NCBI RefSeq assembly: GCF_039566955.1
Contig: NZ_CP154796.1
Location: forward strand, 3,100,001-3,164,000
DNA length: 64,000 bases
Direction of reading: 5' to 3'
Source: Micromonospora sp. DSM 45708
GTDB lineage: Bacteria > Actinomycetota > Actinomycetes > Mycobacteriales > Micromonosporaceae
Shown here: positions 4,562 to 20,334 of the stretch, in pieces
Position numbering within the stretch: the first letter of the stretch is position 1
Layout of the letters: every line of letters starts with the position of its first letter
The notes under the pieces: model-generated
What the model saw: only the letters and a program-made list of their open reading frames with translations
What the model was told of the DNA's origin: nothing
Databases searched by the model: none
Translations under genes and position numbers: made by a program

Positions 4562-6511
4562 GTGCGGGTCAGCTTCGGTGTGCTCGGTCCGGTGACGGCC
4601 TGGGACGACACCGGCACGCCTGTCGACCTGCGGGGTCCCCGGCACCGCGCGGTGCTGGCCCGGCTGATCGTGGCCCGGGGTCGGGTGGTGCCGGTCGGGC
4701 ACCTCGTCGAGGACCTCTGGGACGACCCGCCGGCCGGCGCGGTCGGCGCGGTCCGCACGTTCGTGGCGGCGCTGCGCCGCGGCCTGGAACCGCACCGTCC
4801 GCCGCGCGGGCCGGCCCGGCTGCTGGTCACCGACGGACCCGGGTACGCGCTGCGCGCCGCCCCGGACGCGGTCGACGCCTGGCGCTTCGAGACCGCGGTC
4901 GCCGACGCCGCCGACGCGCTGCCCCGGCCGACACTCGACCGGCTCGACGCGACGCTGGGCCTGTGGCGCGGACCCGGGTACGCCGACGTCGACCGGCCGT
5001 GGGCGCACGCCGAACGCGCCCGGCTCGACCAGGTGCGGCTGACCGCTGTCGAACGCCGGGCCGAGGCGCTGCTCACGCTCGACCGGGCCGCCGACGCCGT
5101 ACCCGACCTGGACGCCCACGTGGCGGACCACCCGTGGCGGGAGGACGGCTGGCGACTGCTGGCGCTGGCGCTCTACCGGGCCGGGCGGCAGGCCGACGCG
5201 CTGGCGGTGCTACGCCGGGCCCGCGAGCTGCTGCGCGACCAGCTCGGCCTGGACCCCGGCCCGCGACTGCGCCGGCTGGAAACCGACCTGAGACGCCAAG
5301 CCGACCCCGAGCCGGCCGGTCCCGCACACGTCTGGGCGGAGGCCGCCGCGGCGTACCAGCGCAGCGTGGTGCCGGGCGCGCGGGCCCGGCTGGAGTCCAC
5401 CGTCGGCCTGCTGCGCAGCCTCGCGGTGACCGGGGCGGGCGGCTTGGCCGCCGCCCGTGACCAGCGGCTGGCGGCCATCGACGCGGCCGAGCAGCTCGGC
5501 GACCCGGACCTCACCGCGCGGGTGATCGGTGGGTACGACGTGCCGGCGCTCTGGACCCGGTCGGACGACCCGGAACAGGCGGCCCGGGTGGTGACCGCGG
5601 CGGAGCGGGCGCTCGCCGGCCTCGGCCCGGACGCGCCGGAGACGACCCGGGCGCGGCTGCTCGCCACCGTCGCGGTCGAGTCGCGCGGCCTGCCGTCGAC
5701 GCGGGGCCCCGAGGCGGCCCGGCGGGCCGAGGCGATCGCCCGGCGACTGGCCGACCCGGCGCTGCTGGCCCAGGCGCTCAACGGCGTGTTCCTGCAGACG
5801 TTCCACCGCACCGGCCTGGCCGCCGAACGGGACGCCGTCGGCGCGGAACTGGTCGCGCTGGCCGCCCGGCACGGCCTGGCCCCGGTCGAGATCCTCGGAC
5901 ACCTGATCCGGATGCAGGCCCGGGGCGCGCTCGCCGACTTCGCCGGCGCCGACACGCACGCGGACGCCGCGGACCGGCTCGCCGACCGGCACGAGTCCCC
6001 GCTCACCGGCGTGTTCACCACCTGGTACCGGGCCATGCGGACCGCGGCGACCGGCGCGTCGTACCCGCGGGCCGAGGCCGCCTACCGGTCGGCCGCGCCC
6101 CGGCTGACCGACTGCGGCATGCCGGGCGTGGAGCGCGGTCTGCTCCCGCTGGCGCTGCTGTGCCTGCGGGTGTGGCACGACCGGCCCGCCGACTTCCCCG
6201 ACGACACCGACTGGGGGCCGTACGCGCCCTGGGCCCGCCCCCTGGTCCTGCTCGCCACCGACCGCCCCGCCGACGCCGCCGACGCGTTGCGCCGGACCCC
6301 CGCGCCCCCGCCCGACCTGCTGTGCGAGGCGCTGTGGTGCCTCACCGGCCGGGCCGCGACGGCGCTCGACGACCGGGCCGCGATGCGGCAGGCCCGGGCC
6401 GCGCTCGCCCCGGCGGCGCACGAGGTGGCCGGCGCGGGCAGCGGCATGCTCACCGCCGGGCCGGTCGCCGCGCACCTCGACCGGCTCGACGCCGCGCTCC
6501 GGTCCGGATGA
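4562..6511 (+). CDS. SARP/BTAD-family transcriptional regulator without NB-ARC domain
   Basis: A 649-aa regulator. Residues 1-95 form an OmpR-like winged-helix DNA-binding domain (VSFGVLGPVTAW, then LVEDLWDDPP and VRTFVAALRR). Residues about 100-250 form the bacterial transcriptional activation domain (BTAD), ending in LLRDQLGLDPGPRLRRLE. The rest, to 649, is helical, Ala/Arg/Leu-rich and TPR-like, with no P-loop, so it is not a full AfsR. The GTG at 4562 is used because GAGGAGGGG stands 7 bp upstream; an in-frame upstream start would overlap the divergent promoter. SARPs usually activate nearby catabolic or antibiotic genes; the divergent hydrolase and the downstream decarboxylase are the nearest candidates. 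Confidence 0.88.
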   Translation: MRVSFGVLGPVTAWDDTGTPVDLRGPRHRAVLARLIVARGRVVPVGHLVEDLWDDPPAGAVGAVRTFVAALRRGLEPHRPPRGPARLLVTDGPGYALRAAPDAVDAWRFETAVADAADALPRPTLDRLDATLGLWRGPGYADVDRPWAHAERARLDQVRLTAVERRAEALLTLDRAADAVPDLDAHVADHPWREDGWRLLALALYRAGRQADALAVLRRARELLRDQLGLDPGPRLRRLETDLRRQADPEPAGPAHVWAEAAAAYQRSVVPGARARLESTVGLLRSLAVTGAGGLAAARDQRLAAIDAAEQLGDPDLTARVIGGYDVPALWTRSDDPEQAARVVTAAERALAGLGPDAPETTRARLLATVAVESRGLPSTRGPEAARRAEAIARRLADPALLAQALNGVFLQTFHRTGLAAERDAVGAELVALAARHGLAPVEILGHLIRMQARGALADFAGADTHADAADRLADRHESPLTGVFTTWYRAMRTAATGASYPRAEAAYRSAAPRLTDCGMPGVERGLLPLALLCLRVWHDRPADFPDDTDWGPYAPWARPLVLLATDRPADAADALRRTPAPPPDLLCEALWCLTGRAATALDDRAAMRQARAALAPAAHEVAGAGSGMLTAGPVAAHLDRLDAALRSG

Positions 6512-6681: not shown

Positions 6682-8049
6682 ATGGACGAGCTGAGGCGCC
6701 TGCTCCGGCGGGCCGCCGACCACGCCACCGACTACCGGCGGTCGCTGCCGGAGCGGCCGGTCGGTGTGCCGGTCGACCAGGCCGCGCTGACCCGCGCGTT
6801 CGCCACCCCGCTGCCGGCCGCGCCCACGCCCCCGGAGCAGGTGCTGACCGAACTGGTGGCCGCCGCCGACCCGGGACTGGTCGCCACCGCCGGGCCGCGC
6901 TACTTCGGCTTCGTGGTCGGCGGCGCGTCCCCGGCGGCCACCGCCGCCGACATGCTCGCCGCCGGCTGGGACCAGATCGCGTTCAACGCGGTCACGTCGC
7001 CGGCCGCGGTGGCCGCCGAGACGGCCGCCGGCGGCTGGCTCAAGGAGCTGCTGGGCCTGCCGGCGTCGGCGTCGCTCGGCTTCGTCACCGGTGGCCAGGC
7101 CGCCAACACCGCCGGGCTCGCCGCGGCCCGGCACCAGGTGCTCGCCGACGCCGGCTGGGACGTGGCACGGCGTGGCCTGCCCGGTGCGCCGCCGGTGCGG
7201 GTGCTCGCCGGCACCGAACGGCACGCCACCATCGACCGGTCGCTGCGCCTGCTCGGCCTCGGCACGGACGCGCTGCGCGAGGTGCCGGCCGGCCCGCAGG
7301 GCGCGATCGACCCGGACGCGCTGGCCGTGGCGCTGCGCGACGCCGGCCCCGGCCCCACCGTCGTCTGCCTCCAGGCCGGCAACGTCAACACCGGCGCCTG
7401 CGACGAACTGCGCCGGGCCTGCGACCTGGTCCACCGGCACGGCGGCTGGGTGCACGTGGACGGCGCGTTCGGGCTGTGGGCCGCCGCCAGCCCCACCACC
7501 CGGCACCTGGTGGACGGCATCGAGGCGGCCGACTCGTGGGCCTGCGACGGCCACAAGTGGCTCAACCTGCCGTACGACACCGCGTTCGCGTTCTGCGCCC
7601 GACCCGACGCGCACGCGGCGGCCCTGTCGTATTCGGCCGCGTACCTCGTGGGCTCCGGCGGGGTGCCCGCGGGCGCGGACCTGACCGCGGAGTCCTCCCG
7701 CCGGGCCCGTGGCTTCGCGGTCTGGGCCGGCCTGCGGGAGCTGGGCCGCGACGGCGTCACCGCGCTCGTGGACAGGTGCTGCGCGCTGGCCCGCCGGTTC
7801 GCCGACGGGCTGATCGCGGCCGGGTTCGAGGTGGTCAACGACGTGGTCCTCAACCAGGTGCTGGTCGGCTTCGGCGACGACGCGCGCACCGACCGGGTGG
7901 TGGCCGCGGTGCAGGCCGACGGCACCTGCTGGGTGGGCGGGACGACATGGCGGGGCCGACGATTGATGCGGATCTCGGTGTCGAACGCGACCACCACGGC
8001 GGCGGACGTGGACCGGTCGGTGGCCGCGATCACCCGGCTCGCCCGCTGA
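6682..8049 (+). CDS. Group II PLP-dependent amino-acid decarboxylase
   Basis: A 455-aa fold-type I PLP enzyme of the aromatic-L-amino-acid/tyrosine/glutamate decarboxylase family, close to the usual 450-500 aa. Features in order are PRYFGFVVGGASPAA (substrate side), FVTGGQAANTAGL (PLP phosphate binding), AGTERHATIDRSLRLLGLG (His stacked on the PLP ring), GGWVHVDGAFG (Asp binding the pyridine nitrogen) and CDGHKWLNLPYD with the Schiff-base Lys292. The ATG at 6682 is 10 bp after the small ORF that follows the SARP gene. It would remove CO2 from an amino acid, probably aromatic, to give an amine; a decarboxylation-deamination role is also possible. The exact substrate is not readable. Confidence 0.88.
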   Translation: MDELRRLLRRAADHATDYRRSLPERPVGVPVDQAALTRAFATPLPAAPTPPEQVLTELVAAADPGLVATAGPRYFGFVVGGASPAATAADMLAAGWDQIAFNAVTSPAAVAAETAAGGWLKELLGLPASASLGFVTGGQAANTAGLAAARHQVLADAGWDVARRGLPGAPPVRVLAGTERHATIDRSLRLLGLGTDALREVPAGPQGAIDPDALAVALRDAGPGPTVVCLQAGNVNTGACDELRRACDLVHRHGGWVHVDGAFGLWAAASPTTRHLVDGIEAADSWACDGHKWLNLPYDTAFAFCARPDAHAAALSYSAAYLVGSGGVPAGADLTAESSRRARGFAVWAGLRELGRDGVTALVDRCCALARRFADGLIAAGFEVVNDVVLNQVLVGFGDDARTDRVVAAVQADGTCWVGGTTWRGRRLMRISVSNATTTAADVDRSVAAITRLAR

Positions 8050-8094
8050 GTCGACGGACCGCCCGGCACCGGGGCACACGCGGGAAGCCACTGC

Positions 8095-8886
8095 TCAGGA
8101 GCCGTGAACGCCGTACTGCAACCACACGTGGACCCGCTCGGTGACCTCGCTCCTTCCGCCGAGGGCGTCGCGGACCTCGGCGGTGAACGCGGCACGGCGC
8201 TCCACGGTGGGCAACCGGTCGGCCGACATCGCCGAGAAGACTCCACCGACCATGTCCTCGACGGTGAGCGCGGCGTCGTACGCCACACATGTCTCCGCGT
8301 ACCGGTAACCGGCAGCGAGCAGCGCCTCCCGGTTGAGTCGGCGACCGGCCTCGTCGGTCTGGCAACTGTCGGTCACGGGATGCCCGAACAGCCGTCCCAG
8401 ACATCCCCGCAGCGCTCTGGACCACTCGGTGTCCTGCAACCACAGGGGCGTGCCGTTGGTGACCACCGCGACGCCGCCGCCGGTTCGCAGCATCGACCGG
8501 GCGGCGGTGAACACGGCCTTCCGGTCCATGAAATGGATCGCGACAGCGATGGTCAGCGCGCCGACCGTTCCCGGTCCGAGCAGCCGGCCCACCGTGGCCA
8601 GGTCGTCGTCCGCCCCGAGCAGCCATGTCACGTTGGTCGGCCCGTCGTTGGCGGCGGTCGCACGGGCGATGGCCAGCATGTCCGGCTCCGGGTCCACGCC
8701 GACGACCGCGGCCACCCGGGCTGCCAACGGAAGGGTCAACTGGCCGGTGCCGCAACCGAGGTCGATCACCGTGTCGTCGGCCTCGAGGGTCAACGCCGCG
8801 GTGAGTGCGTCGAGCACCTCAGGCGGATAACCGCGCCGGTGCCGTGCGTAGCAGCTGGCCACCTCACCGCCGAATCCCTTCGCCAT
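8095..8886 (-). CDS. Class I SAM-dependent methyltransferase
   Basis: A 263-aa cytoplasmic methyltransferase. SAM motif I is VIDLGCGTGQLTLPLA at about residues 40-55, the acidic end of strand 2 is GVDPEPDML, and motif II/III regions are GALTIAVAIHFMD and LRTGGGVAVVTNG. The N-terminal start MAKGFGGEVASCYARHRRGYP is typical of small-molecule methyltransferases of the ubiE/COQ5-like type. It converges on the decarboxylase with 45 bp between stops. Methyl acceptor unknown. Confidence 0.88.
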   Translation of the reverse strand: MAKGFGGEVASCYARHRRGYPPEVLDALTAALTLEADDTVIDLGCGTGQLTLPLAARVAAVVGVDPEPDMLAIARATAANDGPTNVTWLLGADDDLATVGRLLGPGTVGALTIAVAIHFMDRKAVFTAARSMLRTGGGVAVVTNGTPLWLQDTEWSRALRGCLGRLFGHPVTDSCQTDEAGRRLNREALLAAGYRYAETCVAYDAALTVEDMVGGVFSAMSADRLPTVERRAAFTAEVRDALGGRSEVTERVHVWLQYGVHGS

Positions 8887-8929
8887 GCCCGCAGCCTGCC
8901 CGCAGCCCCGGTGATGAAGCCAGCCATTC

Positions 8930-9262
8930 TGCTCACGGCATGCGGAAGGTTCTCGGTTTCCCGAGCGGGGAGCCCGTCGCGGAGGATCGGTGGAGTGGTC
9001 AGCTTCTCCTCCGGTTGCCGGGGCGCGCTGCCGTACCCCGGGTGTCGCGCCGTATCCACGAAGCGGTCGGTGACGTCACGACCGTCGGGCAACACGGAGT
9101 GGCGCCCCTCGACCACCTCCACCAGTTCCGCACCGGCGCGCAGATGCTTTCGTACCCGACCCGGGCGACCGACCCCGAATTTGAGCAGTCCGCGGTGCCG
9201 GACCAGGTAGAGCAGATAGGGGGTGTCCCGCAGCGCCGCGAACGACCTGTCACCAGGCTCCG
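8930..9262 (-). pseudogene. Decayed gene with LLKFGVG-type N-terminal motif
   Basis: Read on the minus strand from about 9262, one frame gives YLLYLVRHRGLLKFGVGR followed by PGRVRKHLRAGAELVEVVEG. This resembles conserved actinobacterial proteins with a GIY-YIG-like nuclease start. A TAG closes the frame shortly upstream and no ATG, GTG or TTG start lies between, so the N-terminus is missing. The frame then runs on without recognisable similarity and into the start of the methyltransferase in another frame. It follows the zinc-ribbon gene on the same strand and was probably once its operon partner. The similarity is from memory of the family. Confidence 0.45.
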
Positions 9263-9276
9263 GCGCCTACTGCGGG

Positions 9277-9444
9277 CTAGAGGTCCACGCCGCTGTCGTT
9301 CGGCAGCAGAGCGAGCCGTTCCATCCGTTCCGCCACCAGAGCCGCGCACGGCTGGCAGTGGGCGTGCCAGGCGATGTCAACGCCGCGACCGCGCGAATTC
9401 GCCCGGCCGTGGACGAGCTCGCCGCAGTTGACGCAACGCGCCAC
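9277..9444 (-). CDS. Small zinc-ribbon-like protein (55 aa)
   Basis: A 55-codon GTG-started gene. It has CVNCG at residues 4-8 and HAHCQPC at 27-33, two paired-cysteine knuckles spaced like a small zinc ribbon, then a helix AALVAERMERLALLP. It begins 7 bp after the stop of the DUF6308 gene on the same strand, so the two are probably cotranscribed. Function unknown; a nucleic-acid- or protein-binding zinc peptide is the usual reading. The cysteine pattern and tight spacing support it as a real gene. Confidence 0.65.
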   Translation of the reverse strand: MARCVNCGELVHGRANSRGRGVDIAWHAHCQPCAALVAERMERLALLPNDSGVDL

Positions 9445-9451
9445 GGCTCTC

Positions 9452-10141
9452 TCATCCCTCCACGGAAGCGGGCAGTCGCATGCCGGGACAGCCGCTCGGA
9501 AGGTGAGCGTGCCGATGCCGCATCCAGAACACGACGTCGAGCACCCGCAACCGGCTGACGGCGGCCGGCAACTCGGCCTCCCGGTGCAAGGCGTCGAGCC
9601 GCCGAGTCAGGGCTCCGCCGTCCTCGCGGAGCGTGCCGTGCAGCCAGGCCCAGAAGCCGCTCCGCGTGCCGTAGGCGCAGGACACCACGTGGTCGTACAC
9701 CGGCACGAGCTTCGGGCGTTTACGGGCGAGCAGCTTGCCGGCGGTGACCCAGCCAATGCCGGGCGTGTCGCGGAGCAGGCGCCACGCGATGTCGGCAGCA
9801 CCGCCGTCGACGATGTACGCGAACGCGTCGTCCTCACCCAGCGCCACGTCGGTCGGGATATTGGCGAGTGCCGCGGACACCTCCCGGCCGAGCTCGCCCT
9901 CGAGCAGGTCGAGCCGCCGTCCGGAACGGATGGTCACGCTGAGCAGTTCCACCCCGATCAGATCCTCGGCGGTGACGGTGTCCGCGACCTCCGGGCGGGA
10001 TCCGCCGCCGCCCAGCACGTCGAACTGTCCGCCCGTGTAGGCCGCGTCGGCGACACCGTGGAAGTAGCTCCGGAGGTCACCGACCGATTTCGGGGCGGCC
10101 AGAACGGTCAGGATTTCGGCGAGGGTGAGGGGTTGGCGCAT
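9452..10141 (-). CDS. DUF6308 family protein
   Basis: A 229-aa protein whose features match the actinobacterial DUF6308 family: an N-terminal helix MRQPLTLAEILTVLAAPKSV, a central LIGVELLSVTI, the conserved stretch TPGIGWVTAGKLLARKRPKL, and VPVYDHVVSCAYG. The GIGxVTAGKLLARKRP segment resembles a helix-hairpin-helix, and the family is often near mobile or stress genes, but its activity is not known. GGAGA stands 4-5 bp before the ATG at 10139-10141. It heads a small minus-strand operon with the zinc-ribbon gene and the decayed gene, and is divergent from the NACHT gene. Confidence 0.75.
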   Translation of the reverse strand: MRQPLTLAEILTVLAAPKSVGDLRSYFHGVADAAYTGGQFDVLGGGGSRPEVADTVTAEDLIGVELLSVTIRSGRRLDLLEGELGREVSAALANIPTDVALGEDDAFAYIVDGGAADIAWRLLRDTPGIGWVTAGKLLARKRPKLVPVYDHVVSCAYGTRSGFWAWLHGTLREDGGALTRRLDALHREAELPAAVSRLRVLDVVFWMRHRHAHLPSGCPGMRLPASVEG

Positions 10142-10435
10142 GGCTCTCCTTCGAGGTCCGGGCCGCGTCGCCTTTCACGTCGTCCCGGGGGATGTGGTCG
10201 GGCCAGCCAACCAGACGTCCGGAGTGGATCAACGCCTCCGTCAGGAACGCGACTGTCCGGCCGGCCGTGCCAGCAGTCGGCGAGCCGGATGGTCCGCATC
10301 AGTGGGGAGGAGTCGCGAATGCGACCCGGCTGTACTCCCTTGTGGATGCCTCTGACCCGGCGTACGCCCGCCGGCAGCGATAGCCTGGAGTCAGCGTCCG
10401 GTCACCCGCAGCCAACCGTCGCGACGGGGATGTAC
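10142..10435. promoter_or_regulatory. Divergent intergenic region before the NACHT gene
   Basis: About 294 bp without a convincing gene. It must hold the promoters of DUF6308 (minus) and of the NACHT-HAD-radical SAM set (plus). A short inverted repeat with arms GTCGC and GCGAC around gaat lies at 10310-10323, and TAGCCT at 10381-10386 could be a -10 box for the plus-strand set. Both are weak signals. Confidence 0.3.
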
Positions 10436-12577
10436 ATGATGAGGACACCGCGAATGGTGGTGGCGATCGCGGTCACCGGTGTCCTGTCCGTCGCCACCGT
10501 GCTGACGGGGCTGATCACCAATGAGGCGTCGGCCCAGCAGCGGTGGCCCGGTTCGCTGGAGGTGATTCGCACCCATGCGTGGCAGTCGCTCGGCGTCCTG
10601 GCAATGCTGTTGGTCGGGCTGACCGTCGCCCTGGTGGTGCTGCCGGAGGGCGGAGCGACGACACCGGCCGGTCCGGAAGAACCTTCGGGCGACGACGCGG
10701 AGCCGCCGACGCCACCGGTGGGCGAAGAGACTGCACCGGTCGAGGAGGGTCGGAAGGCGCAACAGGAACGGCTGACCCGGCTCTCCACGGGACTGGTCAG
10801 TCGGCTGGGTCGGCGGCGCACCGCGTACCCCCTCGATCTCAGCCTGGCCGAGTTGCATCGGATGGACCTGTTCGTGCCGGGGCGGCTGGCCCGCTATCAC
10901 GAGCGGGCCCCGGAGACGGGCGAGCCGGTGGTGGCGGCGCTGGTGGCGCGCTTGTGCGGCGGTGAGTCCGTGCTTCTGCTGGGTGAACCGGGTTCCGGCA
11001 AGAGCCTCTCGCTCTACGGTGTCGCGCTGGCGCTGCGGCGGGCTGGATTGCGGCCGATCCCGTTACGTGCGCTGGACGCCTTGGAGGTCGTCGGCGACCT
11101 GCGGACGGCGGGGCTCGACCCGATGGAGGCGGCGGACGCGGTGGTGTTGGTGGACGGCTTGGACGAGGCAAGCGAACTGGCCGACGGTGGACCGCTCACC
11201 GCTGCGCTGCTGGACCTGCTCGGCCATGGTCCAGCGCTCGTCACCTCCCGCACGAGGGAATATGAGGAGTGGATCGCCTTCGAGACCACCGGCATCAGCT
11301 TCGACGAGGTGTTCGTGCTCCGTGGTTGGTCGGTGGAGATCGAGTTCGCCGACTATCTGAGTCGGCTGCAACGACACGGGCTGATCACCGATCCGGGTCT
11401 CTATCGGACGGTGGTCACGTCGGAGCGTTTGACCCGGCTCGTGAAACGGCCGCTTTACGCCCGGATGCTCACCTTCATCGGTCCCGACGCCGCGACGCGG
11501 GTCAGCAGTGCGAGCAACCTTTACGGCGAGTACCTGAACCGACTCGGCCGTACCACGGACTTCGCGGTACGCGGCAGTCATCCCGGGTGGGGTGGTCAAT
11601 CCCTGTCGGTCTGGCAGGCCGCGGCCTGGCTCGTGCACGCCCAGGATCTGCCCGCGGACGCTATCCCGATGGCCGAACTGTTCGCCGCGCTCACTCCGGA
11701 CAGTGGACGCGGTGCGGAGATCCGGGCGCTCGACCAGGTAATCGATCGACGCACCCTGCACGGCACCGAGGTCGGCGAGTTCCTCCACTACTCGTTCTAC
11801 GAGAATCTGCTGGCCCGGCACATCAGGAACCGGCTGTTGTCCGACCTCTCCACCGAGCAGGCGGTCGTGGCGCTACGGCATGACCTGACCAGGGAGGTCC
11901 GGCACCATCTGATCGGCCAGTTGCAGGAACTGGCCGATCGCGGGCTCGGCGAGCGGCTCTCCGAGCTGTACCGGAAGTTGCGGGACGAACCGGGCCTCGA
12001 CCCGGCCGACCGGCTCATCGTGTGCAACCTGCTGGTCTACCTGATCTCGCGGACCAGCCCGGCGGCGCCCGAGCAGTTGAGCACCCTGCTGCACCGGGAG
12101 CGGGACGAGTTCCTGCTGAGTGCGATTCTGTGGGCGCTGTGCCACCATCGGTCGGACTTCGCGCTGTCGCGCTTCTTCTCCCTGCTGCAGTACGACCCGG
12201 AGTTCCGGGCGTGCAGCCGCGGCTACGTCCTCTACTACTACGGGGATGTCAGGACGGGCCGTCCACCGTTCCTGGACCGGCCGCCATACCTGCCGCATGA
12301 ACGCACCACGACTCGGGTGTTGGCGATGTTCGAGAGCCCGACCTTCCAGGCAATTCCCGCACAACGCCGCTACGTCGACCTCTACACCTTCATGGACATC
12401 TATCTTGTGCGTCATGAGACCATCGGTGGCCGCTCCCTGTCCACGCTTGGTGCGGCCGTGGACGCGCTGTCCGGGCAGGGGCTGACGCAGGCGATGGAAG
12501 AGAAGCTGTCCGACATGCTGCAGACGATCTCCCGCCGGCCCATACCGGACGCGAATCCGACGTCGTTTGCCGGGTGA
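10436..12577 (+). CDS. Membrane-anchored NACHT-type STAND NTPase
   Basis: A 713-aa protein. Two hydrophobic segments at about residues 7-27 and 49-68 put the N-terminus in the membrane, followed by an acidic, Pro-rich linker (about 75-105). The NTPase core has Walker A GEPGSGKS at 183-190, the NACHT Walker B signature VVLVDGLDEAS near 237-247, and LVTSRTREYEEW as the sensor region. The C-terminal 350 residues are helical without obvious repeats. STAND NTPases of this kind act as signalling switches and some bacterial NACHT proteins defend against phage. No toxin-like effector domain is visible here. Three in-frame ATGs (10430, 10436, 10439) compete; GGGGA favours 10436. It is 37 bp before the HAD gene. 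Confidence 0.85.
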   Translation: MMRTPRMVVAIAVTGVLSVATVLTGLITNEASAQQRWPGSLEVIRTHAWQSLGVLAMLLVGLTVALVVLPEGGATTPAGPEEPSGDDAEPPTPPVGEETAPVEEGRKAQQERLTRLSTGLVSRLGRRRTAYPLDLSLAELHRMDLFVPGRLARYHERAPETGEPVVAALVARLCGGESVLLLGEPGSGKSLSLYGVALALRRAGLRPIPLRALDALEVVGDLRTAGLDPMEAADAVVLVDGLDEASELADGGPLTAALLDLLGHGPALVTSRTREYEEWIAFETTGISFDEVFVLRGWSVEIEFADYLSRLQRHGLITDPGLYRTVVTSERLTRLVKRPLYARMLTFIGPDAATRVSSASNLYGEYLNRLGRTTDFAVRGSHPGWGGQSLSVWQAAAWLVHAQDLPADAIPMAELFAALTPDSGRGAEIRALDQVIDRRTLHGTEVGEFLHYSFYENLLARHIRNRLLSDLSTEQAVVALRHDLTREVRHHLIGQLQELADRGLGERLSELYRKLRDEPGLDPADRLIVCNLLVYLISRTSPAAPEQLSTLLHRERDEFLLSAILWALCHHRSDFALSRFFSLLQYDPEFRACSRGYVLYYYGDVRTGRPPFLDRPPYLPHERTTTRVLAMFESPTFQAIPAQRRYVDLYTFMDIYLVRHETIGGRSLSTLGAAVDALSGQGLTQAMEEKLSDMLQTISRRPIPDANPTSFAG

Positions 12578-12614
12578 GTGGATGGCACTACGCGACCATG
12601 GGAAAGGCCAGCTT

Positions 12615-13265
12615 ATGAAACTCTTCGTCTGGGACCTGCACGGCGTGCTCGAGCAGGGCAACGATCGAGCCGTGGTCGACATCTCCAACGAGGTGCTCTC
12701 GACCTTCGGATTCGAGCCCCGATTCACCTACGAGGACGGCCGACTGCTCTACGGTAAGAAGTGGTACGAGTATTTTGCCTTCCTCCTCCCCAACGAGACG
12801 CACCAGCTCCACCTGGAGCTTCAGGATGCCTGCTTCATCCTGTCGGAGGAGCGGCCCGAGCTGCAATATCGCTGGATGACACCGACGCCGCATGTGACGA
12901 CCGTGCTGGACGCCATCGCCGCCCGTCACCAGCAGATCGTCATCTCCAACACCCGTCCCGGCACCCTCGACATGTTTCTCAAACTGTTGGATCTGACCGA
13001 CTACTTCATACCTGGGCGCGCGTTCGCGGTCGACCAGCACGTCCTGGACGTTAAAACCACCAAGATGGACGTCCTTGCCGGCTATCTCGCCGGACAGCCG
13101 GGCTTCGATGAGGTCGTGATCGTCGGAGATTCAGCCAGTGACATGCGAATGGCGGATGTCGCCGGTGGAACCACCTACCTCTTCGCCCACCCCGGCTTTG
13201 CATTACGCAATTGCGCTGCGGACTTCAAGATTCGGGATCTCCGCAAGGTTCTCCAGCGCGTATAG
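12615..13265 (+). CDS. HAD-superfamily protein with Asp-to-His change in motif I
   Basis: A 216-aa HAD-fold protein. Motif I is WDLHGVLEQG, so the nucleophile Asp7 is present but the usual second Asp (DxD) is His9. Motif II is VISNTRP, motif III probably the Lys in KTTKMDVL, and motif IV GDSASDM with Asp172 and Asp176. An alpha-helical cap of about 70 residues follows motif I. It could be a phosphatase with altered acid-base chemistry, or a binding protein. GGAAAGG lies 8 bp before the ATG. It is the middle gene of the NACHT-HAD-radical SAM set, with gaps of 37 and 63 bp. Codon use is less GC-biased than in flanking genes, a sign of acquisition. Confidence 0.85.
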   Translation: MKLFVWDLHGVLEQGNDRAVVDISNEVLSTFGFEPRFTYEDGRLLYGKKWYEYFAFLLPNETHQLHLELQDACFILSEERPELQYRWMTPTPHVTTVLDAIAARHQQIVISNTRPGTLDMFLKLLDLTDYFIPGRAFAVDQHVLDVKTTKMDVLAGYLAGQPGFDEVVIVGDSASDMRMADVAGGTTYLFAHPGFALRNCAADFKIRDLRKVLQRV

Positions 13266-13328
13266 ACCCTGTCACAGCACGGGCCATACACTGAGAGCAA
13301 TCAATGCCTAGCTTGGTGTGAGGACGCG

Positions 13329-14912
13329 ATGGCATCATCCGAATCCCGCCACGCGCCGCTGTCGCGCTGCGATGCGTTGATCGTCGTACCGCCGCCGTCC
13401 CCGTCGGACACCAACCCGCCGCTGGGGCCGGCGATCCTCGCGACAGTGGCGGCACGCAGCGGGTTTCACGTCGAGGTGCTGGACCTCAACATCCTCTTGC
13501 TCAGGCAGTTCGGCAAACGGGCGGGCGGCCTCGGCCACACCCTCGGCGACCACGGCAAGGATCGTTCGGGCGTGGCCGCCGCCGCGCAGTGGCTGTTCGC
13601 CCACACCGGCCTGCGCGGCACTCCCCCGCTGCACCTGCCCGACACCGCCGATCCGGTCGCTGGAATGCACTACCCACTGAGCGCCGTCACCGCTGCCGTG
13701 ACCGCAGCCGCCGCCGACCCCGAGCCCTGGCGGGCCTGGCTCGAAGAGCACCTTCTCGCTACCTGCGACCGGCCTCCGACCGTGGTCGGAGTGTCCCTGA
13801 TGGGTCCCTCGCAGGTCTTCGTCGGTCTGCTCGTGCTACGCGTGGTCAAGGAGATCTGGCCCGGCACGACGACCGTGCTCGGGGGCAGTCACGTCACATT
13901 GCTGCGAGAGTCCCTCCAGCGTGACGCCGGCCTGCGGGACGGTGTCGACCTGGTGCTCACCGGTCACTGCGAGGACGAGTTCGTCGCGATGGTGGCGCGC
14001 CTCAGCGCACGCCCCATCCGACGGCCACTGACACCGGCGAAGCCGCCGGCCCGCGCCCCATTCGAATACCTTCCCACATTCGGCGAGCGGCAACTCACGC
14101 ACTACGACCGGCGGCAGGTCACCCTGCCGGTGCAGTTCACCCGCGGATGTTCCTACGGTCGGTGCACGTTCTGCACCTACCCGGTGGTCGAACCGCAACT
14201 GACCGCCCTCGACGTGGCGGCCGCGAGCCGGACGATGGGCGTGCTCGCGCAGACGTACGGGATCCGTCGCTTCTCCGTGAAGGACTCGCTGTTCACCGCG
14301 CCGATGCTGCGCGCCCTCGCGCACGCGCTGCGGCAAACCCCGGCCACCGACGTGCGATGGAGCGCCACCACGAAGGCCAGCCGAGCACTGGTTCCGATCG
14401 CACCGCTGTTGGCCGGCTCGGGGCTCGCCACGCTGGAGATCGGGGTGGAGACGATCAGCTCGACCGGTCAACGCCTCTTCGACAAACGCGCCGACCCCAC
14501 GATGCTCCAGGAGTTGATCCTGGCCCTGGCGGAGGCGGGCATCACCGTGGTCACCAACCTGATCTTCGGCTTCCCCGGTGAGCGGGAGGAGGAGGCGCAG
14601 GCACAATTGGCGTGGTTCCTGCGCCTACAGGCGGCGGCGTCGCCCGGCCGGGTGGACTGCTCGCTGAACATGCTGGAGATGGTTCGCGGCGCGCCGATGG
14701 TCGCCCACCCGCCGGCCGGAGTCGAACTGCACGGAGTAGCCCCGTGGGCGTTCAGCTATGCCTGGAACGCGCCCGCGTGGCGACGTGACTTCGCAGCCGA
14801 CCTGGAACGGGTGGAACGGGCGCGCGGCGCAACGGGCGCCCTGACGGTGGCGGGCACGCCAGCGGGCACCGGTGCACTCAGCTTTGATGGTGCGCCTCCG
14901 CGCCGATCTTGA
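13329..14912 (+). CDS. B12-binding-domain radical SAM enzyme
   Basis: A 527-aa protein. Residues about 15-235 form a Rossmann-like cobalamin-binding domain (DALIVVPPPSPSDTNPPLG, VVGVSLMGPSQVF, TVLGGSHVTLL, LVLTGHCEDEF) with no DxHxxG motif, as in base-off cobalamin radical SAM methylases. The radical SAM core starts with TRGCSYGRCTFC: Cys274, Cys279 and Cys282 in a Cx4Cx2C spacing that occurs in this family. Later core motifs are FSVKDSLFTAP, LEIGVETIS and VVTNLIFGFPGE. Such enzymes usually methylate unactivated carbons or rearrange small molecules. It is the last gene of the set with NACHT and HAD genes; no precursor peptide or biosynthetic partner is evident nearby. Confidence 0.88.
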   Translation: MASSESRHAPLSRCDALIVVPPPSPSDTNPPLGPAILATVAARSGFHVEVLDLNILLLRQFGKRAGGLGHTLGDHGKDRSGVAAAAQWLFAHTGLRGTPPLHLPDTADPVAGMHYPLSAVTAAVTAAAADPEPWRAWLEEHLLATCDRPPTVVGVSLMGPSQVFVGLLVLRVVKEIWPGTTTVLGGSHVTLLRESLQRDAGLRDGVDLVLTGHCEDEFVAMVARLSARPIRRPLTPAKPPARAPFEYLPTFGERQLTHYDRRQVTLPVQFTRGCSYGRCTFCTYPVVEPQLTALDVAAASRTMGVLAQTYGIRRFSVKDSLFTAPMLRALAHALRQTPATDVRWSATTKASRALVPIAPLLAGSGLATLEIGVETISSTGQRLFDKRADPTMLQELILALAEAGITVVTNLIFGFPGEREEEAQAQLAWFLRLQAAASPGRVDCSLNMLEMVRGAPMVAHPPAGVELHGVAPWAFSYAWNAPAWRRDFAADLERVERARGATGALTVAGTPAGTGALSFDGAPPRRS

Positions 14913-15345
14913 CGATGATCCGCCGGGACTCCTCCTCGCCCAGAACCATCTCCATCCTCTACCCATGCCACCCCTCTCCCAGCCGCCACGGCGGAAAGAC
15001 CTGAACGGCTGGATCGCCCGCCGTGGTCGATGAACAACCTGGCGATATCGGCGAGGCACCTACGACGTGGCCACGTGCCGTTGGCCGCGGTACGCGGGTC
15101 GGCAGGCAACGTCCCCCTTGCGACCTGTATCGGGTGATCAGCACGGCAACGGGTCGAACGGACAACCCGGGCGGCCGATCGGCGGCCACGCCGGAGCTTC
15201 CGCAGGAAGGCGGGCTAGCCGTGAAGGCAGTTCCCGCACTGAGCCCTGTCTCCAAGCTGACAGGGCCGTGGACGAGGCCCCGTGCGCCAGTACCGTCGAC
15301 GGGACTCGCGGCACGGCGTCGCAGGCAAATTGTGGGGATACCATC
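14913..15345. other. 433-bp gap with a hairpin at 15243-15266
   Basis: No convincing gene. A 22-codon frame at 14965-15033 (MPPLSQPPRRKDLNGWIARR and two more residues) lacks a ribosome site and is not called. An 8-bp perfect stem, gccctgtc / gacagggc, with an 8-nt loop lies at 15243-15266, 80 bp before the DUF4352 gene; it may be a terminator for upstream transcription or a leader hairpin. There is no T-run. Confidence 0.4.
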
Positions 15346-16116
15346 ATGACCTTTCCTGGCCAGCCGAGCCAGAACCAGCCGTACGGCCCGCCACCGGTGG
15401 GACCACCGCCACTTGCCGGAACGCCTCCGATGGTCCCGTTCCCTGCCGCACCGACGGCTCGACGGCGGCCGGTCTGGCTGATCCCGACCCTTGTCGGCGT
15501 GGGAGCCATGGTCGCTCTCTGCTGTGGACTCGGCGTCGTCGGCGCCGTCATGGGAGATTCACCATCGGCCGACGGAACGCCCAGCCGGGCGGCGGAGGTG
15601 GCGGCGAGCTCACCCGGTCCGACGCAATCGTCCTCCACGGTCGCGCCGGCAACCAAGGCGCCCTCTCCCGTTAAGGCAGCGCCTTCAGAGCCCCCTGCGA
15701 CCGGGCCCAAGGTTTACCAGATTGGTGACAAGGTGCGTGGCGGCGACTTCGAGTTCACGGTAAAGGGTCTGAAGTGCGGGATCAGCCAGGTCGGTGACTC
15801 GTTCCTCAACCAGAAGGCGCAGGGTAGTTTCTGCCGCGTCACCATCACGGTGAAGAACGTGACGAAGTCCGCGCACCTCTTCCACGCCGACGGGACGGTT
15901 ACCGCACAGGACGCCAGTGGCCGCGAGTACGACGCCGACGGTGAGGCCGGCATCTACGGAAACAGAGATGGCAGAGGCTTCCTGGACGAGATCAACCCCG
16001 GAAACTCCGTGAGCGCCAACGTCTTCTTCGACGTGCCGAAGGGGACCAAGCTGAAGACGATCACGTTCGACGCCGGCCTCCTCACTCTCGCCAAGGACGC
16101 CGTGGTAACGCTCTGA
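15346..16116 (+). CDS. Membrane-anchored DUF4352 (telomeric-repeat-like fold) protein
   Basis: A 256-aa protein. Residues 1-45 are a Pro/Gly-rich cytoplasmic tail (PPPVGPPPLAGTPP), one membrane helix follows at about 46-68 (WLIPTLVGVGAMVALCCGLG), then a Ser/Thr/Pro linker, then an extracellular DUF4352 immunoglobulin-like domain from about 125 (IGDKVRGGDFEFTVKGLKC, VTITVKNVTKS, GTVTAQDASGREY, INPGNSVSANVFFDVPKG). Two cysteines in the domain (GLKCG and SFCRV) probably form a disulfide, as is common in this family. Function unknown; many are surface or envelope proteins. GGGGA lies 8 bp before the ATG. Confidence 0.85.
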   Translation: MTFPGQPSQNQPYGPPPVGPPPLAGTPPMVPFPAAPTARRRPVWLIPTLVGVGAMVALCCGLGVVGAVMGDSPSADGTPSRAAEVAASSPGPTQSSSTVAPATKAPSPVKAAPSEPPATGPKVYQIGDKVRGGDFEFTVKGLKCGISQVGDSFLNQKAQGSFCRVTITVKNVTKSAHLFHADGTVTAQDASGREYDADGEAGIYGNRDGRGFLDEINPGNSVSANVFFDVPKGTKLKTITFDAGLLTLAKDAVVTL

Positions 16117-16165
16117 CAGCAGCCGCCGATGAGGTCGTTCGTCTTGGCCCTGCCAGACTACTGAG

Positions 16166-16501
16166 GTGAACGACCTGACGGCTCGCCTACGGGCTTTCGC
16201 CGAGGAACGTGACTGGCAGCAGTTCCACACACCGAAGAACCTCGCCATGGCGCTTGCCGGCGAGGTCGGTGAGTTGGTCGCCGAGTTTCAGTGGCTGACA
16301 CCTGAGCAGGCAATCGCAGTCATGGAGGACGTCGACGCGGGCGCCCGGGTCCAGGCGGAGATCGGCGACGTCATGATCTATCTGACCCGGTTGGCGGACG
16401 TCCTCGGCATAGATCTGCTGGAGGCCGCCACCGCCAAGTTGACCGAGGTCGCCGTCCGCTATCCCGCCGAAGATGTCAGGGGATCCGCGACCAAGCGGTA
16501 G
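16166..16501 (+). CDS. MazG-like nucleotide pyrophosphohydrolase
   Basis: A 111-aa all-alpha NTP pyrophosphatase of the MazG / dCTPase (RS21-C6-like) type. The metal-binding motif is present: EVGELVAEFQW (ExxE) and, after the loop, EIGDVMIYL (ExxD). It would hydrolyse a (d)NTP to (d)NMP and pyrophosphate, cleaning up non-canonical nucleotides. The start is a GTG with only a weak GAG ribosome site. It stands 49 bp after the DUF4352 gene on the same strand. Confidence 0.9.
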   Translation: MNDLTARLRAFAEERDWQQFHTPKNLAMALAGEVGELVAEFQWLTPEQAIAVMEDVDAGARVQAEIGDVMIYLTRLADVLGIDLLEAATAKLTEVAVRYPAEDVRGSATKR

Positions 16502-16589
16502 CGGAGCGTGCGAGAAGATCACCTCTTCGCTACAGTTCACGCGTACAGGCGCGTAACGACGGGCTTCCGGCCGTGGCCGGCTCCAACAC

Positions 16590-16816
16590 TGGGCCGGCGG
16601 CATCCTGGCCGATCGGATCGCGGAGCGCATCGGGCGCAGCGTGAGCACCGCCGAAAGTCGGTCCTGGGAGCGCAGCCTACCCACACTCGGCCAGGATCTG
16701 ATCGACACCGGCCTACTCGATGGAGGCGGAGACGCGCTACTTGCTTGCCTCTCTGGTTCGGGGTGGAACGCGGCCCGAAGACGATCTACGAGGCGGCGTC
16801 GACTCCATCGGGTAGC
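16590..16816 (+). pseudogene. Remnant of a DUF2075-like / nuclease-helicase N-terminus
   Basis: In one plus frame 16608-16750 reads LADRIAERIGRSVSTAESRS then WERSLPTLGQDLIDTGL. This resembles the N-terminus of DUF2075-type ATP-binding proteins (SP-AEVRSW-SLP-L pattern). It has no plausible start, and similarity ends after about 45 residues. A second short frame just after it (MEAETRYLLASLVRGGTRPE, ending with TAG at 16814-16816) may be a further scrap of another gene. The 16502-16882 interval is thus debris rather than an intact gene. The family match is from memory of the pattern. Confidence 0.4.
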
Positions 16817-16882
16817 CGCGTCACCGCGCGAGGTTCGTCACCATGCTTGCCCCGGACCCCACCGGATAGTTGGCTCGACGGC

Positions 16883-17614
16883 ATGGCCCGCATCGCGTAC
16901 GACGACACCGACGCGGCGGCGTTCGCGGCGACCCGGCACCTCGCCGACGACGGACTCACCGCGTGGCGGGAGGCGGTCGCCCGGCACCTCGCCCCGCGGC
17001 CCGGCATGCGCCTGCTCGACCTGGGCGCCGGCACCGGGAGCTGGGCCGACGCGTTCACCACGTGGTTCCCGGGCCTGCATGTCGTCGCGGTCGAGCCGTC
17101 GCCGGCGATGCGCGCCCGCGCCGCGTTCCGGCCGCTCCTGGGCGGCGACGCGGCGGGCATCCCGCTCGGCGACGGCAGCGTCGACGGCGCGTGGCTCTCC
17201 ACCGTGATCCACCACGTGCCCGACCTCGTCGCCGCGGCGCGTGAGCTGCGCCGGGTCGTGCGGCCCGGCGGCCCGGTGCTCATCCGCTCGGCGTTCGCCG
17301 GCCGGCACCGGGCGATCACGCTGTTCCGCTACTTCCCGGAGGCCGTGCGCGTGCTCGACACGTACCCCGGCGTCACCGAGGTCGGGTCGGCCTTCGCCGG
17401 TGCCGGCTTTCCCGCCGCGTCCGTCGAGCCGGTCCCGCAGGTCACCGCGACGTCACTGCGGGAGGCGGCGGTCACGCTGCGCCGGGAGGCGCACACGCCG
17501 CTTCAGTTGATCACCGACGACGAGTACGCGGCGGGCGTGGCGCGACTGTGCGAGGCCGCCCGGGCCGGCACCGGGCCGGTGATCGACGCGTTGGACCTGC
17601 TGGTCGTGCGCTGA
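16883..17614 (+). CDS. Class I SAM-dependent methyltransferase
   Basis: A 243-aa methyltransferase. Motif I is LLDLGAGTGSWADAF at about residues 44-58, followed by VVAVEPSPAM (acidic end of strand 2) and the Methyltransf_11-type segment IPLGDGSVDGAWLSTVIHHV and ELRRVVRPGGPVLIR. The ATG at 16883 starts the conserved block MARIAYDDTDAAAF; upstream in-frame sequence is debris. GC content jumps back to the host level at this gene. The acceptor substrate is unknown. Confidence 0.88.
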   Translation: MARIAYDDTDAAAFAATRHLADDGLTAWREAVARHLAPRPGMRLLDLGAGTGSWADAFTTWFPGLHVVAVEPSPAMRARAAFRPLLGGDAAGIPLGDGSVDGAWLSTVIHHVPDLVAAARELRRVVRPGGPVLIRSAFAGRHRAITLFRYFPEAVRVLDTYPGVTEVGSAFAGAGFPAASVEPVPQVTATSLREAAVTLRREAHTPLQLITDDEYAAGVARLCEAARAGTGPVIDALDLLVVR

Positions 17615-17722
17615 CCACCGCCGCCTGAGCGGTGCCACTCCAGCTCGACGGTGGCCGTCCGGCCGGTCCGACCTCCGGACCCGGGTCGGCGCGGAACGCC
17701 TTGCGGAGAAGGAGCCGACACG

Positions 17723-18090
17723 CTAGCCGACCTCGGTGTCGGCGAGGTGCGGTAGCAGGACCTTCGCGGTGCCGGGTGCCGGGTGCCGGGTGCCGGGTGC
17801 CGGGTGCCGGGTGCCGGGTGCCGAACTCCCGGTCGAGCGCCTGGTCACTCGGCACGAACACCATGGCCAGCCCCCTCGCCGAGCACCATGGCCTCCTGCC
17901 GGGCGTCCGTCGTGCCACGGAACACGTACCCGGTGACGGCGTGCGGAGAATCCTTCTTCTACGGTCCGGGCCCCTTCACAGCAGGCGCAGGCGGTTTCGC
18001 GGGCTCGCGCCGGGCGGCCCGCTCGGGTGTCTCACCAGGCTCGATGCTGCCGCCGGGGAAGCTCCACCGGTACGGAGCGTGCCAACCCCG
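17723..18090 (-). pseudogene. Nudix hydrolase pseudogene
   Basis: The minus strand reads WHAPYRWSFPGGSIEPGETP and ERAARRE, a Nudix-box beginning (GGxxExGET..AARRE), at about 18084-17995. It then loses the REL-EE end and meets a TAG. Further on, in another frame, comes YVFRGTTDARQEAMVLGEG (near 17930-17870), then a one-base shift into LAMVFVPSDQALDREFG. After the heptamer array it ends TAKVLLPHLADTEVG before a TAG at 17723-17725. Several frameshifts, a degenerate Nudix box and no start codon show decay. The ancestral protein was a Nudix hydrolase of about 130-150 aa. Confidence 0.75.
17771..17819. repeat. Seven tandem copies of a 7-bp repeat (gccgggt)
   Basis: Seven perfect uninterrupted copies of gccgggt. 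They sit inside the Nudix pseudogene between codons for DREFG and TAKVLL; removing the whole array joins the two parts in frame. Seven bases per unit means each gain or loss shifts the frame. Confidence 0.95.
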
Positions 18091-18136
18091 CTACCACTTT
18101 TGTTCAACGCGGGCAAAAGTTGAGCCGGAAACACAG

Positions 18137-18164
18137 AAAGCTATGGACATATAGACATTGCTTT
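18137..18164. promoter_or_regulatory. Inverted repeat before the sugar dehydrogenase gene
   Basis: AAAGCTATG and CATTGCTTT form an 8-of-9 inverted repeat around gacatataga, in a locally AT-rich stretch 55 bp before the TTG start. The enclosed CATATAG could serve as a -10 box. This layout suits an operator overlapping the promoter; the binding protein is not shown. Confidence 0.45.
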
Positions 18165-18219
18165 TGTAGCGTCGGCCGCATCCCATGACCTGCCCGACCG
18201 TCCCGAGAAGGAGAGGCAG

Positions 18220-20334
18220 TTGACTGGACGACTCGCACTCGCGGTGGCCACCGTTACCGCCACCGCCCTCGTCGCCACCCCCACCGTCGCCGCCACCGCC
18301 GCACCGGGCACCGCCGCCCCGCCGCCGGACAGCGCCTTCCAGAAGGTCACCCTCAACGACAGTCCCGGCGAGCCGATGGACCTGGCCGTGCTGCCCGACC
18401 GCCGGGTGCTGCACGTGACCCGCGCCGGCGAGGTCTGGTTGCACAACCCCGCCACCGGCCGCAACACGATCGCCGCCACGTTGGACGTCTACCGGCACGA
18501 CGAGGAGGGCCTGCAGAACGTCGCCGTCGACCCGAACTTCGGGCGGGGCGGCAACAACTGGGTGTACCTCTACTACTCGCCGCCGATGAACACGCCCGTC
18601 GACGATCCCGCCACCCCGGGCGTCAACGAGGGCGACGCGCCCGGCTGGGGCACCGCCGAGGACTTCGCGCCGTTCCGGGGCGTGCTGCGCCTGTCCCGGT
18701 TCCGCCTGGTCAAGGACCGGCTGGACCTGCGCACCGAGCAGCAGATCCTGGACGTGCCGGTCGACCGGGGCATCTGCTGCCACGTCGGCGGCGACATCGT
18801 CTTCGACGCCGAGGGCAACCTCTACCTGTCCACCGGCGACGACACCAACCCGTTCGAGTCCGGCGGCTACGCGCCCATCGACGAGCGGCCGGGCCGCAAC
18901 CCGGCGTACGACGCGCAGCGCACCGCCGCCAACACCAACGACCTGCGCGGCAAGATCCTGCGGATCAGGGTCGCGGCCGACGGGTCGTACTCGATCCCGG
19001 CGGGCAACCTGTTCCGTGAGGGGACGCCCCGCACCCGCCCGGAGATCTACCTGATGGGCGTGCGCAACCCGTTCCGCATCGAGGTGAACCGGGGCACCGG
19101 TGAGCTGTACGTCGCGGACTACTCGCCGGACGCGCGGGAGGCGGACCCGACGCGCGGGCCGGCCGGGCACGGCAAGTGGCTGTCCACCCGCCGGGCCGGC
19201 AACTTCGGCTGGCCGTACTGCGCCACCGCCGACCTGCCCTACGTGGACCACGACTTCGCCACCGGCGCGTCCGGGGCCCCGTTCGACTGCGCCGCCCCGG
19301 TCAACGACTCACCGCACAACACCGGGCTGCGCGCGCTGCCACCGGTGCAGCAGCCGCAGGTGGCCTACACGTACGGCGACTCGCCGCGGTTCCCGGAGCT
19401 GGGCGACGGCGGCATCGGCCCGATGGCCGGCCCGGCGTACGACTTCGACAGGCGCACCACCCGGGGGCGCACCGCGGTCGGCTGGCCGTCCTACTACGCC
19501 GGGCTGCCGCTGTTCTACGAGTGGACCCGCGACTACGTCAAGGCGTTCCGGCAGGACCGGCGCGGCGCGGTGACCGGGATCGAGCCGGTGCTGCCCTCGG
19601 TGGTCTTCGACAACCCGATGGACCTGGAGTTCGGCCCGGACGGCGCGCTCTACGTGCTGGAGTACGGCGACGGCTACTTCAGCGAGAACCCGGACGCGCA
19701 GCTCGCCCGCATCGACCACATCGGCTGGACCGGCAACCACACGCCGGTGCCGCGGGCCTCGGCGACGCCCACCGCCGGCGCCACCCCGCTGACGGTCGCT
19801 TTCTCCAGCGCCGGCACCATCGACGCGGACGGTGACCGGCTGCGCTACGAGTGGTACCTCGACGACGACAACCGGGTCGACTCCCGGGCGCCGAACCCGA
19901 CGTTCACCTACCGGGAGAACGGCCTCTACCGCGCCACGCTGAAGGTCACCGACCGCGCCGGCCGGTCCGCCTCCACCGAGGTACGGATCGCGGTCGGCAA
20001 CGCCGCCCCGGTGGTGGAGCTGGTCAACCCGGTCGAGGGTCAGTCGTTCTCGTTCGGCGACACGGTCGCGTTCGAGGTCCGCGTGACCGACGACCAGCCG
20101 GTGGACTGCGCCCGGGTCACCGTCACCTACATCCTCGGCCACGACAGCCACGGGCACCCGCAGACCACGGCCAGCGGCTGCACCGGCTCGATCACCACCA
20201 CCGTCCCGGAGGGCCACGACCCCGGGACCGACAATCTCACCGGCGTGTTCGTCGCCAGCTACACCGACACCGGAAGCGACGGGCTGCCGGCGCTGACCGG
20301 CACCGACCAGGTCGTCCTGGTCCCCTCCGCGTAA
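18220..20334 (+). CDS. Secreted PQQ-type sugar dehydrogenase with PKD domain
   Basis: A 704-aa exported protein. An Ala/Thr-rich signal peptide (residues about 1-28, cleavage near ATAAPGTAA) leads into a six-bladed glucose/sorbosone dehydrogenase propeller (about 40-510) with MDLAVLPDRRVLHVTRAGE, DEEGLQNVAVDPNFG, LYLSTGDDTNPFE, LRGKILRI, MGVRNPFRIEVN and MDLEFGPDGALYVLEYGDG. A PKD domain follows (about 515-595; IDADGDRLRYEWYLDDD) and then a C-terminal beta domain. It probably oxidises an extracellular sugar. The TTG start is set by AAGGAGAGG 5 bp upstream. It is 22 bp before the Tat-exported isomerase, so the two likely form an operon. The family is sure; the cofactor and substrate are inferred. 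Confidence 0.88.
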   Translation: MTGRLALAVATVTATALVATPTVAATAAPGTAAPPPDSAFQKVTLNDSPGEPMDLAVLPDRRVLHVTRAGEVWLHNPATGRNTIAATLDVYRHDEEGLQNVAVDPNFGRGGNNWVYLYYSPPMNTPVDDPATPGVNEGDAPGWGTAEDFAPFRGVLRLSRFRLVKDRLDLRTEQQILDVPVDRGICCHVGGDIVFDAEGNLYLSTGDDTNPFESGGYAPIDERPGRNPAYDAQRTAANTNDLRGKILRIRVAADGSYSIPAGNLFREGTPRTRPEIYLMGVRNPFRIEVNRGTGELYVADYSPDAREADPTRGPAGHGKWLSTRRAGNFGWPYCATADLPYVDHDFATGASGAPFDCAAPVNDSPHNTGLRALPPVQQPQVAYTYGDSPRFPELGDGGIGPMAGPAYDFDRRTTRGRTAVGWPSYYAGLPLFYEWTRDYVKAFRQDRRGAVTGIEPVLPSVVFDNPMDLEFGPDGALYVLEYGDGYFSENPDAQLARIDHIGWTGNHTPVPRASATPTAGATPLTVAFSSAGTIDADGDRLRYEWYLDDDNRVDSRAPNPTFTYRENGLYRATLKVTDRAGRSASTEVRIAVGNAAPVVELVNPVEGQSFSFGDTVAFEVRVTDDQPVDCARVTVTYILGHDSHGHPQTTASGCTGSITTTVPEGHDPGTDNLTGVFVASYTDTGSDGLPALTGTDQVVLVPSA

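Follow-up and report, generated by a model that had tools for sequence, protein, structure and literature searches.

A set of three genes was examined in a window of 64,000 nucleotides (the whole stretch of DNA analysed) from Micromonospora sp. DSM 45708, whose genome is a single contig of 7.0 Mb (NZ_CP154796.1; the window covers positions 3,100,001 to 3,164,000 of the forward strand). Named relatives of its proteins likewise put it within or close to Micromonospora. The set, which encodes a NACHT-type STAND NTPase, a HAD-fold enzyme, and a cobalamin-type radical S-adenosylmethionine (SAM) enzyme, is real, conserved, rare, and apparently mobile, and it appears to be a new form of NACHT-based conflict system with an unexplained enzymatic arm. 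The reading preferred here, with somewhat better than even confidence, is that the three genes form a conflict cassette, probably directed against phages, which travels from genome to genome in one piece. It is likely that the NACHT protein is the conflict switch; that the two enzymes act on a small-molecule signal is proposed tentatively, at a little under an even chance. A conflict system is the best reading because exchangeable effector domains are found on an NLR-type NACHT core.

All three genes are read in the same direction on the plus strand, one after another with gaps of 37 and 63 bp, an arrangement that the first-pass annotation of this DNA had described correctly. The features are as follows.

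10436-12577, + strand: NACHT-type STAND NTPase gene, 713 residues (in-frame ATG also at 10430 and 10439; one database copy begins further inside)
10445-10639, + strand: N-terminal two-helix membrane module, the exchangeable part (residues 4-28 and 48-68; from hydrophobicity, model helices, and a match to HaaT NF041717)
10748-11845, + strand: NACHT core, residues 105-470 (Walker A 183-190, Walker B 240-244, FxHYSF motif around H451)
11846-12535, + strand: helical C-terminal region, residues 471-700, presumed sensor (model helices; RGYxLYYYGD-type conserved stretch at 595-604)
12615-13265, + strand: HAD-fold enzyme with DxH motif I, 216 residues (alternative start 12582; from PF00702 and residue counts)
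13329-14912, + strand: cobalamin-type radical SAM enzyme, 527 residues (Cx4Cx2C)
10304-14930, no strand: continuous blastn match with the same-genus genome G067 (85.3%), taken as the extent of the cassette

Use of the in-frame ATG at 12582 would leave 4 bp after the NACHT stop codon and add 11 residues to the HAD protein, an extension present in the database copy P0001 (227 residues) and in the relative P0003. Nothing useful was returned by scans with Rfam (8000-18500), for tRNA genes (whole window), or for promoters and terminators (9900-15400).

The NACHT protein and its exchangeable N terminus

The first protein carries a Walker A motif (GEPGSGKS) and a Walker B motif (DGLDE), and the Walker residues G183, G188, K189, D240, D243, and E244 are kept in all 92 NACHT relatives. 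H451, which we take to be the winged-helix histidine, is kept in 91 of these, the remaining one having a gap. By sequence model the protein falls below the threshold for Pfam NACHT (PF05729, 13.3 bits against a cut-off of 26.7), and a profile search against the sequences of solved structures gave mostly general AAA matches. The predicted fold has an NLR-type NACHT core and resembles the solved structures of NLRC4, NLRP3, and NOD2, at 12-20% identity; these matches span residues about 103-637 and leave the N-terminal module outside. Assignment of the protein as an NLR-type NACHT STAND NTPase is thus supported by the modelled fold, in line with the NACHT switch proposed at first pass.

The membrane anchor proposed in the same annotation also held up, at modest model confidence: two long model helices, at residues 4-28 and 48-68, fall on hydrophobic segments (predicted local distance difference test score, pLDDT, about 54-71). 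Two membrane helices were found in 17 of the 92 relatives, the closest ones, and the others have different or short N termini. Versions with TIR, metallophosphatase, nucleoside phosphorylase (PNP), CHAT, helical, and two-helix membrane N termini are all represented, P0257 having a metallophosphatase-NACHT layout, and the swapped domains match effector-type models of PADLOC (effector-domain scans covered 10 and 6 of the 92 relatives). The membrane segment thus seems to be one of several possible effectors rather than part of the core, and this exchange of immune-type domains supports a conflict role for the locus.

The membrane module (window 10451-10708) resembles the N terminus of HaaT (NF041717), a tetratricopeptide repeat (TPR) protein associated with cyclophane ribosomally synthesized and post-translationally modified peptides (RiPPs). 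The likeness is confined to the two-helix module, the first 88 of 882 model positions (E 2.3e-15; 55.8 bits against a cut-off of 1125), and the module may be a mobile one of actinobacterial proteins.

At the other end of the protein, mean identity is 0.42-0.43 over residues 471-640 and 0.28 over residues 641-700, the core and most of the C-terminal region being equally conserved.

The HAD-fold and radical SAM enzymes

The second protein scores above the cut-offs of PF00702 (35.7 bits against 26.4; 1.5e-8) and PF13419, and its query against the sequences of solved structures gave weak general HAD matches. Its motif I reads DxH instead of DxD, with the other catalytic positions intact. In classical HAD phosphatases the second Asp of motif I serves as the acid/base. 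Among 120 relatives, D7, G10, K150, G171, and D172 are invariant, T113 is kept in 118 and D176 in 119, and the second position of motif I holds His in 116 and Asn in 4, which places the family outside the classical DxD phosphatase subset. A dead pseudoenzyme was considered and rejected on these counts. Because the sole change is DxH, the His is conserved, and the other catalytic residues are kept, an active enzyme is the likelier; the changed active site noted at first pass thus comes down to one residue.

HAD proteins 39-42% identical to that of the window were found in three candidate-phylum genomes. On two of these contigs (L011:8001-8642 and L012:8001-8642) the HAD gene lies downstream of a gene that, to judge by its sequence, we take to encode a CCA-adding-type tRNA nucleotidyltransferase; the two are adjacent in L011 and separated by one open reading frame in L012. 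This neighbour is a possible hint at an ancestral HAD substrate.

The third protein is, as predicted from its sequence, a cobalamin-type radical SAM enzyme, as the first-pass annotation had it: it lies above the cut-offs of PF04055 and of PF02310, the B12-binding family, and contains the Cx4Cx2C motif, whose three cluster cysteines align in all of 120 relatives (one row is gapped within the Cx4 spacing). Its model (pLDDT 90) matches whole cobalamin-type enzymes, with Z scores of 23.8 for OxsB, 23.7 for AprD4, and 22.1 for TsrM, and a profile search against the sequences of solved structures returned AprD4, TsrM, and two others. Because AprD4 is not known to use cobalamin, the fold alone is no proof of cofactor use, and because OxsB and AprD4 tie by Z score, with TsrM within 2 units, no substrate can be read from it. 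The RiPP maturase model TIGR03975 gave 94.1 bits, below its cut-off of 281.85, and a match to the NCBIfam model EruA was far under its cut-off. One radical SAM relative, P0223 (693 residues), has a guanylate-kinase-like C-terminal domain (PF00625, precomputed).

OxsB acts with a phosphohydrolase on deoxyadenosine phosphates (PMC13331322); for this reason a nucleotide-type substrate might be taken, by analogy, as a first guess for the enzymes of the cassette, although a doubtful one and no more. The oxetanocin pair OxsB/OxsA differs from the cassette in that OxsA is an HD-domain protein and not a HAD protein (PMC13331322); identity to OxsB in the fold comparison is 14%.

Occurrence, gene order, and genomic setting

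Across 151 genomes of the genus, the HAD orthologue and the NACHT core were each found in four and the radical SAM gene in five, with all three in the same four genomes (G000, G067, G080, and G146). The HAD search matched 15 of the 151 genomes, 11 of them through weak matches (30-36%) of other HAD proteins. The fifth radical SAM genome, G131, has an isolated C-terminal piece (L044 4964-5248, 82% identity over 95 residues) and neither of the other genes; the fragment is apparently a relic of a lost cassette. In overlapping draws at family, class, and phylum level, the HAD gene was found in 4 of 300, 1 of 394, and 1 of 396 genomes, own genome counted, and the radical SAM gene in 1 of 392 genomes of the broader draw, again the own genome only. 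The set is rare, since the class and phylum draws yielded the own genome only. No relative of the HAD query was found in viral contigs, and none of the HAD (E 1e-15), NACHT (1e-15), or radical SAM (1e-30) protein on plasmids.

Six actinobacterial loci carry all three genes: the window, G067, G146, G080, Nonomuraea (L009), and Phytohabitans (L010/L034). The first four share the order NACHT, HAD, radical SAM. In Nonomuraea, NACHT is followed by HAD and the radical SAM gene points towards them, and in Phytohabitans the radical SAM gene comes first, ahead of NACHT and HAD. The proposal that the three genes form one set therefore stands with regard to their co-occurrence, both within the genus and in two other genera, but not as a single fixed order. 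The radical SAM match in G146 crosses one stop codon, and the Phytohabitans HAD gene (L034 8282-8937) shows a frame change near its C-terminal end.

Contigs of the protein database were also paired by identical size, with all 92 NACHT proteins, the 120 HAD rows listed out of 200 matches, and, for the radical SAM protein, 81 rows from the 120 listed out of 127 matches as input. All three proteins shared a size in 21 cases, HAD and radical SAM in 14, HAD and NACHT in 10, and radical SAM and NACHT in 8. The pairing is rough, as only the longest contig per cluster enters, so that true pairs are missed, and short sizes can agree by accident (two sources fall together at 4391, and at 5530 a third, unrelated protein is included). 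Metallophosphatase- and TIR-NACHT versions pair in this way with both partners, and nucleoside-phosphorylase versions with a radical SAM relative. Over 21 sets (the 4391-bp contig dropped, Nonomuraea added), the correlations between the distance matrices of the three proteins are 0.966-0.981, a level reached in 0 of 2000 permutations; for the 12 sets that are more distant they are 0.946-0.949; common host descent also raises these values. The alignments A1, A2, and A3 hold chosen rows, 29, 45, and 42, respectively.

The lower GC content reported at first pass was found again: that of the cassette is 0.671 against 0.733 for the window, with 11 of 239 sliding windows of the same size equally low. 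At third codon positions the three genes have a GC of 0.79-0.84, compared with 0.96-0.97 for two other genes of the window. Blastn matches cover 10425-14824 with G146 and 10448-14106 with G080, where two further short pieces extend the match to 14824. Beyond the set no blastn match was found with either genome, and that with G067 is limited to pieces at 9095-10036, within and beside the DUF6308 gene. Across six flank loci (five relatives keeping one border gene), which span the neighbourhood only, one being 5.4 kb, almost no match was found in 8050-18200, a MazG-like piece occurring in 2 of the 6. The many short tblastx matches among those listed, at most 30 per locus, were taken for GC-rich noise. 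Because the match edges coincide with the set, the flanks do not match, and GC and third-position GC are lower, the set appears to have been acquired horizontally as a unit and is apparently mobile.

The decayed neighbours of the first-pass annotation were not confirmed: those neighbour genes that were scanned align with known families for the greater part of their length. The DUF6308 gene (9452-10141, - strand) adjoins the cassette, and G067 has two relatives of this gene close to its cassette (L031 1098-1775 and 4462-4938); none was found near the cassette in G146, G080, Nonomuraea, or Phytohabitans. The MazG-like gene (16166-16501) follows the cassette at a distance of 1.25 kb and is not part of the DNA that matches the three relatives of the same genus.

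Mechanism, rival explanations, and known systems

Under the preferred reading of an anti-phage conflict cassette, the NACHT protein would at rest be held closed in an ADP-like state, and the radical SAM and HAD enzymes would make, change, or remove a small molecule, perhaps a nucleotide or sugar phosphate, for which the conserved C-terminal part of the NACHT protein might be the reader. Infection would shift this molecule, the NACHT protein would oligomerise, and its N-terminal module would act. To judge by its two helices and by analogy, the membrane segment of the window protein would act by membrane damage or depolarisation; among the relatives, the acting module would be a TIR, metallophosphatase, nucleoside phosphorylase, CHAT, or helical domain. 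The C-terminal sensors of characterised antiviral STAND proteins are usually highly variable and bind phage proteins (PMC10907252). The conserved C-terminal region and the two constant enzymes of the cassette point instead to a constant, perhaps chemically produced, trigger. The full version of this scheme, in which an NLR-type switch with interchangeable killing domains is gated by a nucleotide or similar molecule modified by a B12 radical SAM and a DxH HAD enzyme, is possible but more probably wrong than right. To our knowledge, an immune cascade running on cobalamin radical chemistry would be the first.

Several observations weigh against this reading. Neither the HAD nor the radical SAM protein has a good match among the PADLOC defence families, and the few neighbours scanned include no recognised defence genes. 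Single-partner contig sizes are many (74 HAD only, 38 radical SAM only, 52 NACHT only), the CHAT version pairs with neither partner, and the nucleoside-phosphorylase versions pair with no listed HAD. The radical SAM gene of G080 (L033 9133-9995) is without most of residues 259-472, its NACHT and HAD genes looking full length. The N-terminal part of the NACHT model is of low confidence. The three candidate-phylum genomes have no radical SAM or NACHT relative (E 1e-20; 0.8-1.0 Mb, possibly incomplete assemblies), and as the HAD gene occurs there by itself, it may have joined the set by recruitment. Partial, weak PADLOC matches of window proteins (PDC-M51A, PDC-M54A) were given no weight.

Among the alternatives, a guard arrangement, in which the enzymes modify a host macromolecule or cofactor (a tRNA end or an envelope precursor, for instance) and an invader's disturbance of the mark or of the enzymes is sensed by the NACHT protein with no diffusible signal, is unlikely but the most probable. 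Constant partners and a conserved presumed sensor would fit a constant host target, and the HAD gene lies downstream of the presumed CCA-adding-type gene in two of the three candidate-phylum contigs; that tRNA link, however, comes from a pair of related contigs that have neither the NACHT nor the radical SAM gene. It is less probable still that the locus is a biosynthetic or RiPP one, with the radical SAM enzyme maturing a peptide or natural product, the HAD protein trimming it, and the membrane NACHT protein regulating production or export. In favour of this, the NCBIfam models that fit the radical SAM protein best include RiPP maturases, and the membrane module is similar to the beginning of HaaT, but the TIGR03975 score lies below its cut-off, TIR or CHAT N termini fit a production regulator poorly, and no shared neighbouring precursor gene was seen by blastn (no match outside the set with G146 or G080, and with G067 matches on the DUF6308 side only), although very short peptides could escape.

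The tight linkage of all three genes would also suit an antitoxin-like brake, in which a product of, or contact with, the HAD or radical SAM protein keeps the NACHT effector off. This is very improbable; to judge by the G080 allele, the radical SAM enzyme is not needed to tolerate the NACHT gene, if that gene is expressed there. HAD relatives without the other two genes could be taken to speak for chance neighbours or for a metabolic operon unrelated to the NACHT gene; the identical occurrence in 4 of 151 genomes, the rearranged yet joint occurrence in other genera, the match edges at the set, and the distance-matrix correlations of 0.97-0.98 (which common descent also raises) have largely refuted this already and leave it scarcely credible.

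Several known systems share parts of the preferred conflict cassette. In anti-phage bNACHT proteins an N-terminal effector, a NACHT switch, and a C-terminal sensor are combined (PMC12169576); the window protein shares this three-part layout and the exchangeable effector, but its switch is accompanied by two enzyme genes and lies below the Pfam NACHT cut-off. DS-8 (DefensePredictor), a metallophosphatase-NACHT fusion in one protein, and DS-9, a metallophosphatase gene with a HAD phosphatase gene, are both anti-phage, and mutants in metallophosphatase residues lose protection in both (PMC13092281). The layout of DS-8 is that of P0257, whereas the window protein has membrane helices instead of the metallophosphatase. 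The searched text of the DS-8 and DS-9 report mentions no radical SAM enzyme, the comparison with the cassette being by description only (PMC13092281). A 2020 survey mentions a different ternary conflict system whose effector is a radical SAM protein predicted to modify a peptide (PMC7159879). No recognised description of a NACHT, HAD, and cobalamin radical SAM set was found in the open-licence literature, covered mostly by title and abstract.

The targets of the metallophosphatase and HAD proteins of DS-8 and DS-9 were left open (PMC13092281), and the cassette family adds to this question a third enzyme with assayable chemistry, in a compact set of ~4.5 kb in which the trigger can be sought. 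If true, the preferred reading would suggest an undescribed bacterial self-defence system, perhaps with a chemically made signal, built around a relative of the animal inflammasome proteins.

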